A stretch of 64,000 bases of DNA from Nitrososphaeraceae archaeon. Its GTDB lineage: Archaea; Thermoproteota; Nitrososphaeria; Nitrososphaerales; Nitrososphaeraceae. Made by a program: the position numbers and the translations under genes. The stretch covers positions 62,001-126,000 of the forward strand of contig JALDRC010000005.1 in the NCBI GenBank assembly GCA_031316115.1. Direction: 5' to 3'. The notes beneath the pieces are model-generated. The model was not told the DNA's origin. It ran no database searches and saw nothing but the letters and a program-made list of their open reading frames with translations. Below, one piece after another: positions 49,304 to 55,462 of this stretch (its first letter is position 1; every line of letters begins with the position of its first letter).

Positions 49304-50143
49304 ATGAACAGAACACTAATGGCATATATGTTGGCAGCAATAGTGGCTTTCTCTGCTATTGCAGGAATAACAATGCAGCCAATACCTCTAAGTGCACAAC
49401 AAGTTACACCACAACAGACATTACCAGATCCTGTACCACTCGCAACTAGTCCATCATGTGGTCAGGTAGTAACAACAAATGTAGTTTTAACCGCAAACTT
49501 GGTTTGTGAAGAAACAGATGGAATTATAGTAGGCGCAGAAAATGTAGATATAGACCTTAACGGACATACGATCACCGGACCAGATGTAACTCCAGACGGT
49601 GCTACAGTACCAACACCAAAAGATTCTAGCAAAGTAGGAGTTATGGTGCCAAATCATAATGGCGTAACAATACGAGACGGTACCATTGAAGGATTCCAAG
49701 CTGGTATCCTGTGTACTGGATGTCAAGGACTTACTATTACAGGAGTCACTTTAAAAGATAATCAAATAGGTCAATTCAGTACTGGTGCTACAACTATATC
49801 TACTAGACTTTCAACTATAGTGGGTAATGCAATAGGTATTGCTGGACACTCGACACAACTAAGTGAAATCGTTAACAATATCATATTCGACAACGACCTA
49901 GCAGGAATAACATTAGTAAACTCAGATGACGCAAAAATATCACTGAATTCCATCACAGAATCAAATAATGGACTCTATGTAGATAACCAAAGTAATGATA
50001 ACTTTCTATTCTGGAACAATGTTAAGCTTAACACTATAGATATTAACAATGCTAATGGATTACCTGTGAATACCAATAACAACCAATTCGATCAAAATAA
50101 CTGTGATACCTCTAATCCAAGTGGTATATGTATTGGACAGTAA
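49304..50143 (+). CDS. Exported right-handed beta-helix protein (NosD-like)
   Basis: 279 aa with a clean signal peptide (MNRTLMAYMLAAIVAFSAIAG, cleavage likely before QQVTPQQ). The rest is a parallel beta-helix: repeated short segments such as DIDLNGHTI, VTIRDGTIEGF, LTITGVTLKDN, STIVGNAIGI, NNIIFDNDLAGITL and AKISLNSITESNNGLYVDN, spaced about 22-25 residues, as in NosD/pectate-lyase-like folds. Four cysteines in two pairs (C50/C66, C133/C136-like) may form disulfides. Likely a cell-surface carbohydrate-binding or protective protein. Composition is richer in T, P and G than neighbours. Confidence 0.8.
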   Translation: MNRTLMAYMLAAIVAFSAIAGITMQPIPLSAQQVTPQQTLPDPVPLATSPSCGQVVTTNVVLTANLVCEETDGIIVGAENVDIDLNGHTITGPDVTPDGATVPTPKDSSKVGVMVPNHNGVTIRDGTIEGFQAGILCTGCQGLTITGVTLKDNQIGQFSTGATTISTRLSTIVGNAIGIAGHSTQLSEIVNNIIFDNDLAGITLVNSDDAKISLNSITESNNGLYVDNQSNDNFLFWNNVKLNTIDINNANGLPVNTNNNQFDQNNCDTSNPSGICIGQ

Positions 50144-51347: not shown

Positions 51348-51884
51348 TTAATAATCTATTCCTTTTTTCGCTTTTATTCCTCTTTTAAATGGATGTTTGA
51401 TCTCATTCATCTCTGTTACCAAATCTGCTATCTGTATTATTTCCTTTGGTGCATAATTACCTGTTAAAACAAGAGAGGTTTTTTTTGGTTTTATTTCTAT
51501 TAGTCTTAAAACTTGATCTGAAGTAACTAGCTTTAGTTTGATTGCATAGTTAATTTCATCAAGTATTACGATATCATATGAATTTGATATTATCTTAGCA
51601 TGTGCCAGATCAATAGCTTCTCCAGCAGCCTTTTTATGTTCTTCAAATTCGTGATCATCGTCTAAGATTCCTATGAATCCTTTACCTGCTGCAATCATCT
51701 CGAATTCAGGTTCAAGTCTTTTAGAACTAGAGAGTTCTCCATAAAACCATTCTCCTTTGATAAATTGAACCATCAATACTTTTAAACCATGGCCTACTGC
51801 TCTTAAAACTATCCCTAATGCAGCAGTAGTCTTTCCTTTCCCTTTTCCAGTATAAATCAATACAATTCCATCATCTGTTGTCAT
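51348..51884 (-). CDS. cobA: Cob(I)alamin adenosyltransferase, CobA type
   Basis: 178 aa. Walker A YTGKGKGKTTAALG (about 11-24), then LRAVGHGLKVLMVQFIKGEW and VILDEINYAIKL, which are hallmarks of CobA/CobO/BtuR. It transfers the adenosyl group of ATP to cob(I)alamin. Thaumarchaeota make cobalamin and use it in methylmalonyl-CoA mutase of their carbon-fixation cycle. No other cob gene adjoins, but an MtrA-like corrinoid-protein homologue is encoded 1.1 kb away. Confidence 0.93.
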   Translation of the reverse strand: MTTDDGIVLIYTGKGKGKTTAALGIVLRAVGHGLKVLMVQFIKGEWFYGELSSSKRLEPEFEMIAAGKGFIGILDDDHEFEEHKKAAGEAIDLAHAKIISNSYDIVILDEINYAIKLKLVTSDQVLRLIEIKPKKTSLVLTGNYAPKEIIQIADLVTEMNEIKHPFKRGIKAKKGIDY

Positions 51885-52028: not shown

Positions 52029-52997
52029 ATGAACAGTGATTCTTCATTTATGCAAAATAAACATATAATTTTACAGAATTGGAATGATGAAAATGTTCTA
52101 ATCACAGATATTCTAACTAATGTAATTACTTTACTCAATTTTAATGATAGTACTGTTAAAAATCAAATTATTCAAGTCTTAAAAAATCACGACGGATCTA
52201 CAACTCCTTCTGACAAATGGTTTGATGTTTTAAAGACGTTAGCAATATTATCCGTAAAAAATAATGTAATTTTTTCACAGGCGCAGATTTACGACCTATT
52301 AACAATATTTTCTAAGATAGCAGATGAGAAAAAGAAAGAGGTTGTAAATACCGTTACCTTTAATGTTTATAAAGATATCATGGAGAATCATTATAAATTT
52401 GAAGAAAATTTAAAACTAATTTACCCTGTAATTATCGTTAATCTTATGCATATAATTAAATACAGTAAAGATATTGATGGAAATCCTGTTAATTTATTTT
52501 CAATTAATAATTATTATCAAAAATCTAAATCCAATATAGAACAAGAATTGCAAAAAATAAGATCTTATGAATTTCAAGATAAAAAATTTGAAGGTAATAA
52601 TAACGAAACAATCAAGTTATTAGGATTATTGACCGGAAGAAATGAAACAGATTTACTCCCCTTGTATTCAAGTCTTCAAGAATCTGATCAGAAAAAAATT
52701 ATTGATTTGTGTAGTAATTATCAGAAAATTGAGGATTATGGAAAATTAATCGAAACTGAAAAATTTAGTGATGTGATTGAAAATGAGATTGGTAGAAAAT
52801 TATCTGATAGTCAACTTCAACATGCAGCGAACTCTATAAAAAAAACAAAAAAATATATCGAAAATGTCTTAGATGGAGGATTTCTTCCAAAAGGAAAACA
52901 TGGTATCAATCATGTGAAACATAATATAGAATACGGATTTCAATTAATGGGTATTATGAAGTCTAAAAGGAGAAAGTCAGAAATCAAATCGGATTGA
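52029..52997 (+). CDS. Unrecognised 322-aa protein coupled to MtrA-like gene
   Basis: No family recognised. Predicted to be cytosolic and mostly helical; residues 40-130 resemble repeated helix pairs, then a charged linker. The C-terminal end has KGKHGINHVKHNIEYGFQLMG (about 291-311), where H-G-x-x-H-V-x-x-N resembles an HD-domain opening but no second HD motif is seen. Its TGA stop overlaps the TTG start of the MtrA-like gene (52994), so the two are translationally coupled and probably act together. The ATG start follows a TATA-like stretch (atttatatca at about 52005-52014). Confidence 0.6.
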   Translation: MNSDSSFMQNKHIILQNWNDENVLITDILTNVITLLNFNDSTVKNQIIQVLKNHDGSTTPSDKWFDVLKTLAILSVKNNVIFSQAQIYDLLTIFSKIADEKKKEVVNTVTFNVYKDIMENHYKFEENLKLIYPVIIVNLMHIIKYSKDIDGNPVNLFSINNYYQKSKSNIEQELQKIRSYEFQDKKFEGNNNETIKLLGLLTGRNETDLLPLYSSLQESDQKKIIDLCSNYQKIEDYGKLIETEKFSDVIENEIGRKLSDSQLQHAANSIKKTKKYIENVLDGGFLPKGKHGINHVKHNIEYGFQLMGIMKSKRRKSEIKSD

Positions 52998-53521
52998 GAA
53001 TTTCAAGATTCCCATTAGCAAAAAATTACCAAAATTTGAGAGTAGGAACTCAAATAGAAAAAGTATGTGGTATTTGCTGTTATTATTTGATCCCAATAAA
53101 ACAAAATTATTTATTGGGAAATGGTGAAAATATTGCAATTTGTACTCTATCTAGTTTAGATTTATTGGACAAAATTGGAAAAGACAAAGAACTCATTAAC
53201 AAGATAGTGATTGCCGGTAGATTACTTTCTGAAAATAAAGGTATTGATTTGATTATAAAATTTATAAATAAAAATGAAAAATTACGTCACCTCGTAATTT
53301 GCGGAAAAGATGTAAATGGTCATTTATCTGGACAGGCACTTTTATCGTTAAAAAAGGATGGAGTTAATGAGCAAAATAGAATTATTGGTGCGAAAGGTAG
53401 ATACCCCATATTATCGTCTTCCCTAGAAGAGATTGATAATTTTAGGAATAAAATAGATTTAGTGAATCAAATTGGATTGACAGATGTGAAAAAAATAAAA
53501 ACAATAGTATTTAGTATTTAA
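52994..53521 (+). CDS. MtrA-like (methyltransferase subunit A) protein, soluble
   Basis: 175 aa. From residue 72 it follows MtrA of methanogens closely in pattern: IAGRLLSENKGIDLIIK, then LRHLVICGKDVNGHLSGQAL, RIIGAKGRYP, and FRNKIDLVNQIGL. The histidine at about 110 (V-N-G-H-L-S-G) falls where methanogen MtrA has its corrinoid ligand His84, as I recall. The C-terminal membrane helix of MtrA is missing, so this is soluble. Cysteines at 25, 28 and 29 are extra. Start TTG at 52994. The organism shows no methanogenesis genes here; the protein may bind a corrinoid for another methyl-transfer or sensing role. Confidence 0.75.
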   Translation: MRISRFPLAKNYQNLRVGTQIEKVCGICCYYLIPIKQNYLLGNGENIAICTLSSLDLLDKIGKDKELINKIVIAGRLLSENKGIDLIIKFINKNEKLRHLVICGKDVNGHLSGQALLSLKKDGVNEQNRIIGAKGRYPILSSSLEEIDNFRNKIDLVNQIGLTDVKKIKTIVFSI

Positions 53522-53840
53522 GTTCTTGTCTCTTTTTATTAATTTTATGTTTTTTTGAATATTCTTCTACTAGTTCTGTGGGACTCATTCCAAGCTCTAA
53601 CGATGCCTGAATAACAAAATGAAGAATATCTACAACTTCTTCCTTGGCAAGTAGAATATTAAAATCTTGAGATCTTTTCCACCATTTCCAATTAGTCAGC
53701 CTTTGAAGCTCGACAGCCTCATGTATAATAGCTACAGAAAGAGATGAAATCTTTGCTTCCAATTTTTTCGGATACCTAGAAGAGGTTACATACTTTTCTA
53801 GATCTTGTTGCATTTGGAAAATATCGTCTAATTTATCCAT
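53511..53840 (-). CDS. Dimeric dUTPase / MazG-like all-alpha NTP pyrophosphohydrolase
   Basis: 109 aa, all alpha. The motifs EAVELQRLTNWKWWK (about 38-52) and EEVVDILHFVIQASLELG (about 67-84) are the E-x2-E and E-x3-D metal sites of the dimeric dUTPase/MazG superfamily, and the N-W-K-x-W pattern favours the dUTPase-2/dCTPase-like group. It would hydrolyse dUTP or another NTP, keeping uracil out of DNA, a task shared with the type 4 UDG at 55638. Its 3' end overlaps the end of the MtrA-like gene by 11 bp, tail to tail. Confidence 0.75.
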   Translation of the reverse strand: MDKLDDIFQMQQDLEKYVTSSRYPKKLEAKISSLSVAIIHEAVELQRLTNWKWWKRSQDFNILLAKEEVVDILHFVIQASLELGMSPTELVEEYSKKHKINKKRQELKY

Positions 53841-53926: not shown

Positions 53927-54769
53927 ATGGAATATGCTAATCCTAATGTACTAGTTGATACAAAATGGGTAGAAGAACACATCAATGATAACAATGTACG
54001 AATAGCAGAAGTAGATTATGATCCAAAAACAAATTATTTTCTTGGTCACATACCAAATTCAGTATTATTTGATTGGAAAAATGATATAAATGACCCAACT
54101 ACAAGAAATATACTTTCTAAGGAATCGTGTCTAAACTTATTACAAAAGTCTGGAATAAATCAAGATACTACTGTTGTTCTATATGGAGATTTTAATAATT
54201 GGTTTGCAGCCTTTGCTTTTTGGGTATTTGAATACTATGGTATAAAAAATTTGAAAATAATGAATGGAGGTAGGAAAAAATGGCTTGAAGAAGATAGGTC
54301 AATTTCAAAAGAAGTTCCTACTTTTCCCACGGGAAATATTACTCCTTCTGAACCGAACATAAATTTAAGGGCTTTTCTAGACCAAGTCAAAGAATCACTA
54401 GAATCTGAAAAAACGGTTCGAGTAGATGTAAGAAGTCCTCAGGAATTTAGTGGTCAAATTACAGCCCCACCAGAATATCCTACAGAACATGCACAAAGAG
54501 GTGGCCACATCCCAGGATCTGCAAACATACCATGGGGAAAAGCAGTTAATGAGGATGGTACTTTCAAATCTGCAGATGAGCTTTATGATTTATATAAAGC
54601 ACAGGGCATAACACCAGAAAAAGAAGTAATAACATATTGTAGAATAGGAGAACGTTCATCCCATACATGGTTCGTTTTAAAACATTTGTTAGGATATAAA
54701 GATGTAAAGAATTATGATGGTTCATGGACAGAGTGGGGAAATATGATAGCAAATCCAATTGAAAAATAA
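53927..54769 (+). CDS. sseA: Rhodanese, thiosulfate/3-mercaptopyruvate sulfurtransferase
   Basis: 280 aa with two rhodanese domains. The C-terminal one is active: EVITYCRIGERSS with Cys238 as the persulfide carrier; the six-residue loop C-R-I-G-E-R is of the thiosulfate type. The N-terminal domain (8-125) has LGHIPNSVLFDW and VVLYGDFNNWFAA, with no catalytic cysteine. It moves sulfur from thiosulfate or mercaptopyruvate to an acceptor. The gene ends 15 bp from the end of the GcvH/TusA-like fusion gene on the other strand, which offers a possible acceptor. Confidence 0.93.
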   Translation: MEYANPNVLVDTKWVEEHINDNNVRIAEVDYDPKTNYFLGHIPNSVLFDWKNDINDPTTRNILSKESCLNLLQKSGINQDTTVVLYGDFNNWFAAFAFWVFEYYGIKNLKIMNGGRKKWLEEDRSISKEVPTFPTGNITPSEPNINLRAFLDQVKESLESEKTVRVDVRSPQEFSGQITAPPEYPTEHAQRGGHIPGSANIPWGKAVNEDGTFKSADELYDLYKAQGITPEKEVITYCRIGERSSHTWFVLKHLLGYKDVKNYDGSWTEWGNMIANPIEK

Positions 54770-54784
54770 TAATTAATTTATTTA

Positions 54785-55462
54785 TTATTTTTTAGTTTCG
54801 TTTTCTTTTCTTATCAAAAAGTGAAAAAAATGGTTTTCTTTTCTCACATCTACTATAGTCTGAAAGTTTTCTTTTGACCACCTCTCAATTTCCAAATCTG
54901 CTGTTACATCATCAGATACTAAATAGATTATCTCTCCTGTCTTAATTCGAGGTATTAGATCATCCAATTTTAAAAGAGTTGCTGCGCATTCTGATCCGAT
55001 TTCATATAACTCATGATCAGGAAAAAACTTGAAACATCGTATATTTAGGTTTTTTATGGTTTCTTCAAATATCTTGTTACAATCTTGTATATTTTTCAAA
55101 TATTTGATATCCTCATCTAAATTTGATGGATTGATAGTTACAAACCACCCTTCTTCATAAGGACTATCATTTACTAACTTAGGAAATTCTATGATTTTAT
55201 CATTCCTTTTTTCTATTTTACCGTAGATTGGGGACCTTAATGTTCCGAAATATCTTAAACTCTCAATTGAACTAAAACGTTTTCCCTTATCTATTGTTAT
55301 GTTTTCCTCTTTTATTTTAACAGATATTAATTTTCCTGAAATAGATGCCATAATTGGGGTTATGCCTAATTTTATAGAGTTTTTGTTTGAAACATCTATC
55401 CAAGTAAAATTTTCAATATCATAAAGCAAGGATTCAGGAAATGTACAATTGTTTATAATCAT
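54785..55462 (-). CDS. GcvH-like / TusA-like fusion, no lipoyl lysine
   Basis: 225 aa with two recognisable parts. Residues 1-120 follow the glycine cleavage H protein: YDIENFTWIDVSNKNSIKLGIT, then SIESLRYFGTLRSPIYGKI, and PKLVNDSPYEEGWFVTI. In H proteins the middle block is E-S-V-K with Lys carrying lipoate; here it is E-S-L-R, Arg70, so lipoylation is not expected. Residues 140-225 resemble TusA/SirA sulfur carriers: ECAATLLKLDDLIPRIKTGE (Cys159 in the place of the CPxP Cys, but without prolines), then YLVSDDVTADLEIERWSKE. A sulfur-relay or structural role is inferred. No gcvP or gcvT is adjacent. Confidence 0.7.
   Translation of the reverse strand: MIINNCTFPESLLYDIENFTWIDVSNKNSIKLGITPIMASISGKLISVKIKEENITIDKGKRFSSIESLRYFGTLRSPIYGKIEKRNDKIIEFPKLVNDSPYEEGWFVTINPSNLDEDIKYLKNIQDCNKIFEETIKNLNIRCFKFFPDHELYEIGSECAATLLKLDDLIPRIKTGEIIYLVSDDVTADLEIERWSKENFQTIVDVRKENHFFHFLIRKENETKK

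Follow-up and report, generated by a model that had tools for sequence, protein, structure and literature searches.

The 64,000-nucleotide stretch of Nitrososphaeraceae DNA analysed here (the window) encodes a soluble, free-standing member of the MtrA corrinoid-protein family at positions 53036-53521 of the forward strand. The open reading frame extends from 52994 to 53521 and yields 175 aa counted from its first possible start; alignment with relatives favours a start further downstream, which gives a protein of 161 aa. This product matched the MtrA profile (PF04208) with an E-value of 2e-23 and 83.3 bits, against a cut-off of 25 bits, as well as the solved MtrA chains 5laa and 5l8x. Its AF2 model (mean pLDDT 87, residues 1-22 disordered) displays the MtrA-type Rossmann-like fold and retrieved only MtrA chains from the PDB at E <0.001, seven in total, with TM scores of 0.74-0.78. 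The open reading frame terminates past the soluble domain and the C-terminal transmembrane helix is absent, as had been noticed in a preliminary description of the locus. The NCBIfam MtrA equivalogs scored the protein far under their cut-offs (TIGR01111, 83 vs 249 bits), and a PHROG search returned no match for it or for the gene located just upstream, referred to here as gene 1.

The preliminary description had also proposed that the core of MtrA is kept, including the histidine that binds the corrinoid in methanogens, and our alignments agree with this view. In methanogen MtrA, the cobalt ligand is His84, which is hydrogen-bonded by Glu54, while Lys52, Thr53, Gly57 and Asn64 contact the nucleotide tail of the corrinoid (PMC4915002). 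The histidine of the VNGHLSG string in the window aligns with His84 and corresponds to residue 96 of 161 (codon at 53321-53323, forward strand); the counterpart of Glu54 is Glu66 (codon at 53231-53233, forward strand). His84 and Gly83 are invariant in 81 of 81 homologues from ammonia oxidisers, none of which lacks the histidine. Ser53, Glu54, Asn55 and Gly57 are likewise invariant across this set, a conservation biased by the search because one of the two search patterns spanned positions 50-58, His84 lying outside both. In a sample of 46 homologues drawn from the family by the Pfam profile alone, 44 carry His84 together with Glu54, while the remaining two (L079 and L080) have lost the pair. 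Other positions have changed. Lys52 is replaced by Leu or Phe and Asn64 mostly by Tyr or Phe in the homologues of ammonia oxidisers, so that the mode of corrinoid binding may differ. Furthermore, the methanogen meander consensus at position 109, GAIPF-Y/F-xEN (PMC4915002), gives way to GAKGRYPIL in the window and to SxSPxPxL in many relatives. Judged from these alignments, the putative cobalt-ligating core is retained, and motifs found specifically in the Mtr complex have disappeared.

Of 250 genomes from the class Nitrososphaeria, 162 contain a PF04208 match; among the 196 good genomes, the number is 146. The proteins of ammonia oxidisers form a single clade (support 99/95) with respect to methanogen and deeper sequences, and the MtrA sequences from the rest of the phylum stand at a clearly greater distance. 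The protein is held vertically in ammonia-oxidising archaea. However, mtrA was lost repeatedly in marine lineages, one loss leaving a pseudogene. Several genomes of Nitrosopumilaceae retain mazG next to an empty mtrA slot; across loci L205-L212 the gene was lost from this same slot, cleanly in most of them and with a decaying pseudogene left in L208. A decaying mtrA carrying stops was observed in G085.

Examination of the neighbourhood of mtrA revealed several recurrent genes. A cobO-type ATP:corrinoid adenosyltransferase gene (51348-51884, reverse strand; PF02572, E-value 3e-63) diverges from it, which corroborates the earlier mention of such a gene 1.1 kb away on the other strand. Divergent cobO genes lie 149-1111 bp from mtrA in 15 of the fetched loci, an arrangement restricted to Nitrososphaeraceae. 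On the other side, a convergent gene of the dUTPase_2/MazG type (53511-53840, reverse strand; PF08761, E-value 2e-15) overlaps the 3' end of mtrA by its own 3' end, and the same overlap occurs in 57 of 80 loci. A gene for a PPOX F420-type flavin oxidoreductase stands directly upstream of mtrA, at -8 to +59 bp, in 23 loci that span Nitrososphaera, Nitrosocosmicus, Nitrosocaldus and one marine genome. This arrangement is scattered over several clades of the tree and is probably older than that of gene 1 and mtrA. In the genome under study, a PPOX homologue (44% identity) is located on another contig, apart from mtrA. In Nitrosopumilaceae and Nitrosotalea, a DegT aminotransferase gene overlaps mtrA from upstream (35 loci). 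DegT is no obligate partner, as it persists without mtrA in four genomes (G063, G037, G141 and G102); at empty mtrA slots of Nitrosopumilaceae it is kept in some genomes and missing in others, having been lost along with mtrA in L205, L207 and L209. Nor does mtrA of Nitrosopumilaceae belong to a cluster for B12 biosynthesis: the only B12 gene among the annotated conserved upstream genes is cobJ, which lies some 3 kb from mtrA rather than beside it, and the others include those for PCNA, aspartokinase and DUF7482.

Two further features of the window were recorded. A single open reading frame at 54785-55462 (reverse strand) combines a glycine-cleavage H-like domain (PF01597, E-value 6e-26) with a TusA-like domain, the latter at an E-value of 2e-6, slightly under its cut-off. 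It adjoins a two-domain rhodanese gene (53927-54769, forward strand), and together they resemble parts of lipoate-linked sulfur transfer. At 49304-50143 (forward strand) lies a gene for a NosD/beta-helix repeat protein, probably secreted, which is also kept close to cobO in further genera of Nitrososphaeraceae.

A corrinoid-binding role is supported indirectly, because His84, Glu54, Asn55 and Gly57 are kept, the fold is that of MtrA, and a divergent cobO recurs beside mtrA in Nitrososphaeraceae. Since the histidine that holds cobalt is kept and the usual partners are missing, the protein probably carries vitamin B12 for another task. More specifically, our tentative proposal, which we regard as plausible but short of probable, is an accessory base-off/His-on carrier or reserve of cobamide rather than a part of a methyl-H4MPT:CoM methyltransferase. 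We infer that the protein would take up cobamide from its own cell in the base-off/His-on state, with His96 as the ligand and Glu66 holding it, and that the bound cobalt could be reduced by the PPOX-type flavin/F420 oxidoreductase, whose gene several deep lineages have directly upstream. The recipient of the corrinoid, or of its upper-face group, might then be CobO or a B12 enzyme, and the protein would be useful yet dispensable. The neighbourhoods set bounds to this proposal: in Nitrosopumilaceae the PPOX link is lost, with DegT found there instead, the PPOX gene of this genome is not beside mtrA, and the cobO link holds in one family only.

A His-on corrinoid site suits methyl transfer equally well, and the main rival to an accessory cobamide carrier is therefore a methyl carrier, whose corrinoid would take a methyl group from a methyltransferase other than MtrH and hand it on to an acceptor, for instance homocysteine or a different thiol, in the manner of methanogen MtrA. 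Such transfer is the ancestral chemistry of the family, and the His84-Glu54 pair that it would use is kept. In addition, deeper Nitrososphaeria (L079-L081, from G008, G012 and G039) encode an MtrA domain fused to PterinBD-DUF4346, and in methanogens MtrA is predicted to feed core methionine synthases (PMC7857596). Proteins of the core MetE (Meth_synt_2) type in two other genomes (L097 and L098, from G246 and G259) have a C-terminal stretch that resembles the DUF4346 part of the fused PterinBD-DUF4346 domain, which might connect MtrA-like carriers with the synthesis of methionine. Several findings speak against this route. MtrH (PF02007) was found in none of 120 genomes, the one under study included, while the methanogen controls were positive, and it was discarded as a partner. 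No MetE-type acceptor domain was detected in Nitrososphaeraceae or in G003, which disqualifies MetE as the methyl acceptor in this family, and the pterin-binding proteins seen in the same genomes are limited to one of DHPS size and MetH. DUF4346 is absent from the sampled ammonia oxidisers, so a separate DUF4346 protein was also set aside.

Cobalamin-dependent MetH fares no better as a partner. In this genome, it is encoded by two adjacent genes (L182:898-4493, contig C14 of G000), one for a homocysteine domain of 318 aa and the other, of 838 aa, for pterin, B12 and activation domains; the enzyme is complete, the last two of these domains being its own. Furthermore, its presence does not track that of mtrA: counting a detected match as presence, both genes occur in 143 genomes, mtrA without MetH in 19 and MetH without mtrA in 31, the two being decoupled both ways. 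MetH was also detected in Nitrosopumilaceae genomes that lost mtrA. On balance, we consider a methyl carrier somewhat unlikely.

It is also conceivable that the fold was retained while corrinoid binding was lost, the protein having become a binder of another ligand or a structural adaptor. Replacement of the Lys52 and Asn64 contacts and the altered meander motif are consistent with such a change, and the loss of both His and Glu in two deeper relatives indicates that it can happen in the family. Nevertheless, unlike in those relatives, the His/Glu/Asn/Gly core is invariant in ammonia oxidisers, which makes a loss of binding distinctly unlikely. Ammonia-oxidising archaea reportedly accumulate nitrocobalamin (Heal et al. 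2018, as cited in PMC6908642 and PMC7819960). A more elaborate version of the carrier proposal, in which the MtrA-like protein would be the core of a module that recovers cobamide, together with the PPOX flavin/F420 reductase and CobO, from poisoning by the NO and nitrite produced by the cells, appears improbable to us.

Gene 1 (52029-52997, forward strand) encodes an all-helical protein of 322 aa, as predicted by a model with a pLDDT of 81 and a pTM of 0.59. No family matched it in Pfam or NCBIfam, and no fold in the PDB matched its model below an E-value of 0.001. It had been credited with an HD-like end; the string HGINHV does exist and falls within the model's last helix, ahead of a disordered tail, but there is no profile match to an HD domain, no room for one in the model and no fold match. 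Homologues were found in 33 genomes, that of the window included, all of them Nitrososphaeraceae, with conservation of the C-terminal part. The gene lies directly before mtrA in one clade of four members only, the window and its three nearest relatives (L102-L104; support 100/97). In other genera, it is found downstream of the convergent MazG/dUTPase-type gene, and in another genus elsewhere in the genome. In G189, from a sister genus within Nitrososphaeraceae, it stands between cobO and mazG, and the mtrA slot is non-coding. Because its placement varies and it exists without mtrA in G189, the two genes are not conserved as neighbours; together with the repeated losses of mtrA, this indicates that mtrA is accessory and that gene 1 is independent of it. 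Gene 1 is therefore a lineage-specific neighbour of mtrA and no required partner.

The spacing of the two genes also differs from the initial account, which had them overlap by 4 bp and concluded that they are made together. That overlap requires translation to begin at the TTG of position 52994. Among the three nearest relatives, the ATG of mtrA lies 6 or 28 bp past the stop of gene 1, and in other genera the homologues start 8-11 residues ahead of an 'AGxxC..LPI' motif. An in-frame TTG at 53036 gives the mtrA of the window the N-terminal length of its relatives in the alignment, and the true spacing is thus likely a gap of 38 bp. With such a gap, a shared transcript is possible and translational coupling is not required. 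The idea that gene 1 and the MtrA-like protein form a dedicated pair for corrinoid methyl transfer or sensing, as first put forward, has in its favour that they adjoin on one strand within 6-38 bp in the window and its three nearest relatives, but is most improbable given that gene 1 is absent outside Nitrososphaeraceae, occupies another position in other genera, survives in G189 where mtrA is gone and yielded no enzyme or sensor fold.

Among known systems, the cytoplasmic MtrA homologues represented by that of Methanothermus fervidus (5LAA), which has been reconstituted with cobalamin, come close to the window protein. Both are soluble single-domain proteins of similar length (161 aa here, within the limit of a single soluble cobalamin-binding domain of <215 aa set for these homologues in PMC4915002), with a fold similarity of TM 0.75, about 30% identity, and His84, Glu54, Asn55 and Gly57 in common. 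They differ in that the organism of the window has neither the Mtr complex nor MtrH and is presumed to be aerobic, and in that the meander motif and two nucleotide-tail contacts of its protein are changed. The MtrA subunit of the Na+-pumping methyl-H4MPT:CoM methyltransferase shares the corrinoid-binding domain and the axial histidine; unlike this subunit, the window protein has no transmembrane helix, and it belongs to a class in which no MtrH was found in the 120 genomes searched. MtrA-like and MtrAH proteins are known in non-methanogenic Asgard archaea (PMC11291895), and MtrAH remnants have been described outside methanogens (PMC9635834). The Asgard proteins are likewise divergent members found outside methanogens, but the archaea concerned have MtrH or MtrAH fusions as well (PMC11291895) and ammonia oxidisers do not. 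The window protein is set apart from these Asgard proteins and remnants by the missing MtrH and by its presumed aerobic, ammonia-oxidising host, which the names of its relatives place in Nitrososphaeraceae. Finally, the fusions of deeper Nitrososphaeria share the MtrA domain and the class with it, and differ by the added PterinBD-DUF4346 and by the loss of the cobalt-ligand His and Glu in two of the three. A literature search, made mostly outside subscription journals, retrieved no paper on the MtrA-like protein of ammonia oxidisers.

Ammonia-oxidising archaea are major environmental producers of vitamin B12, and little is known of their intracellular handling of this cofactor. A small, soluble, orphan MtrA whose cobalt-ligand core is intact occurs in about three quarters of the good genomes without MtrH, suggesting that a corrinoid domain of the methanogenesis type serves another purpose in aerobes. 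Should cobamide binding be borne out, labelling genes as 'tetrahydromethanopterin S-methyltransferase subunit A' or the like would be misleading in these genomes, and a new B12-dependent step would await discovery.
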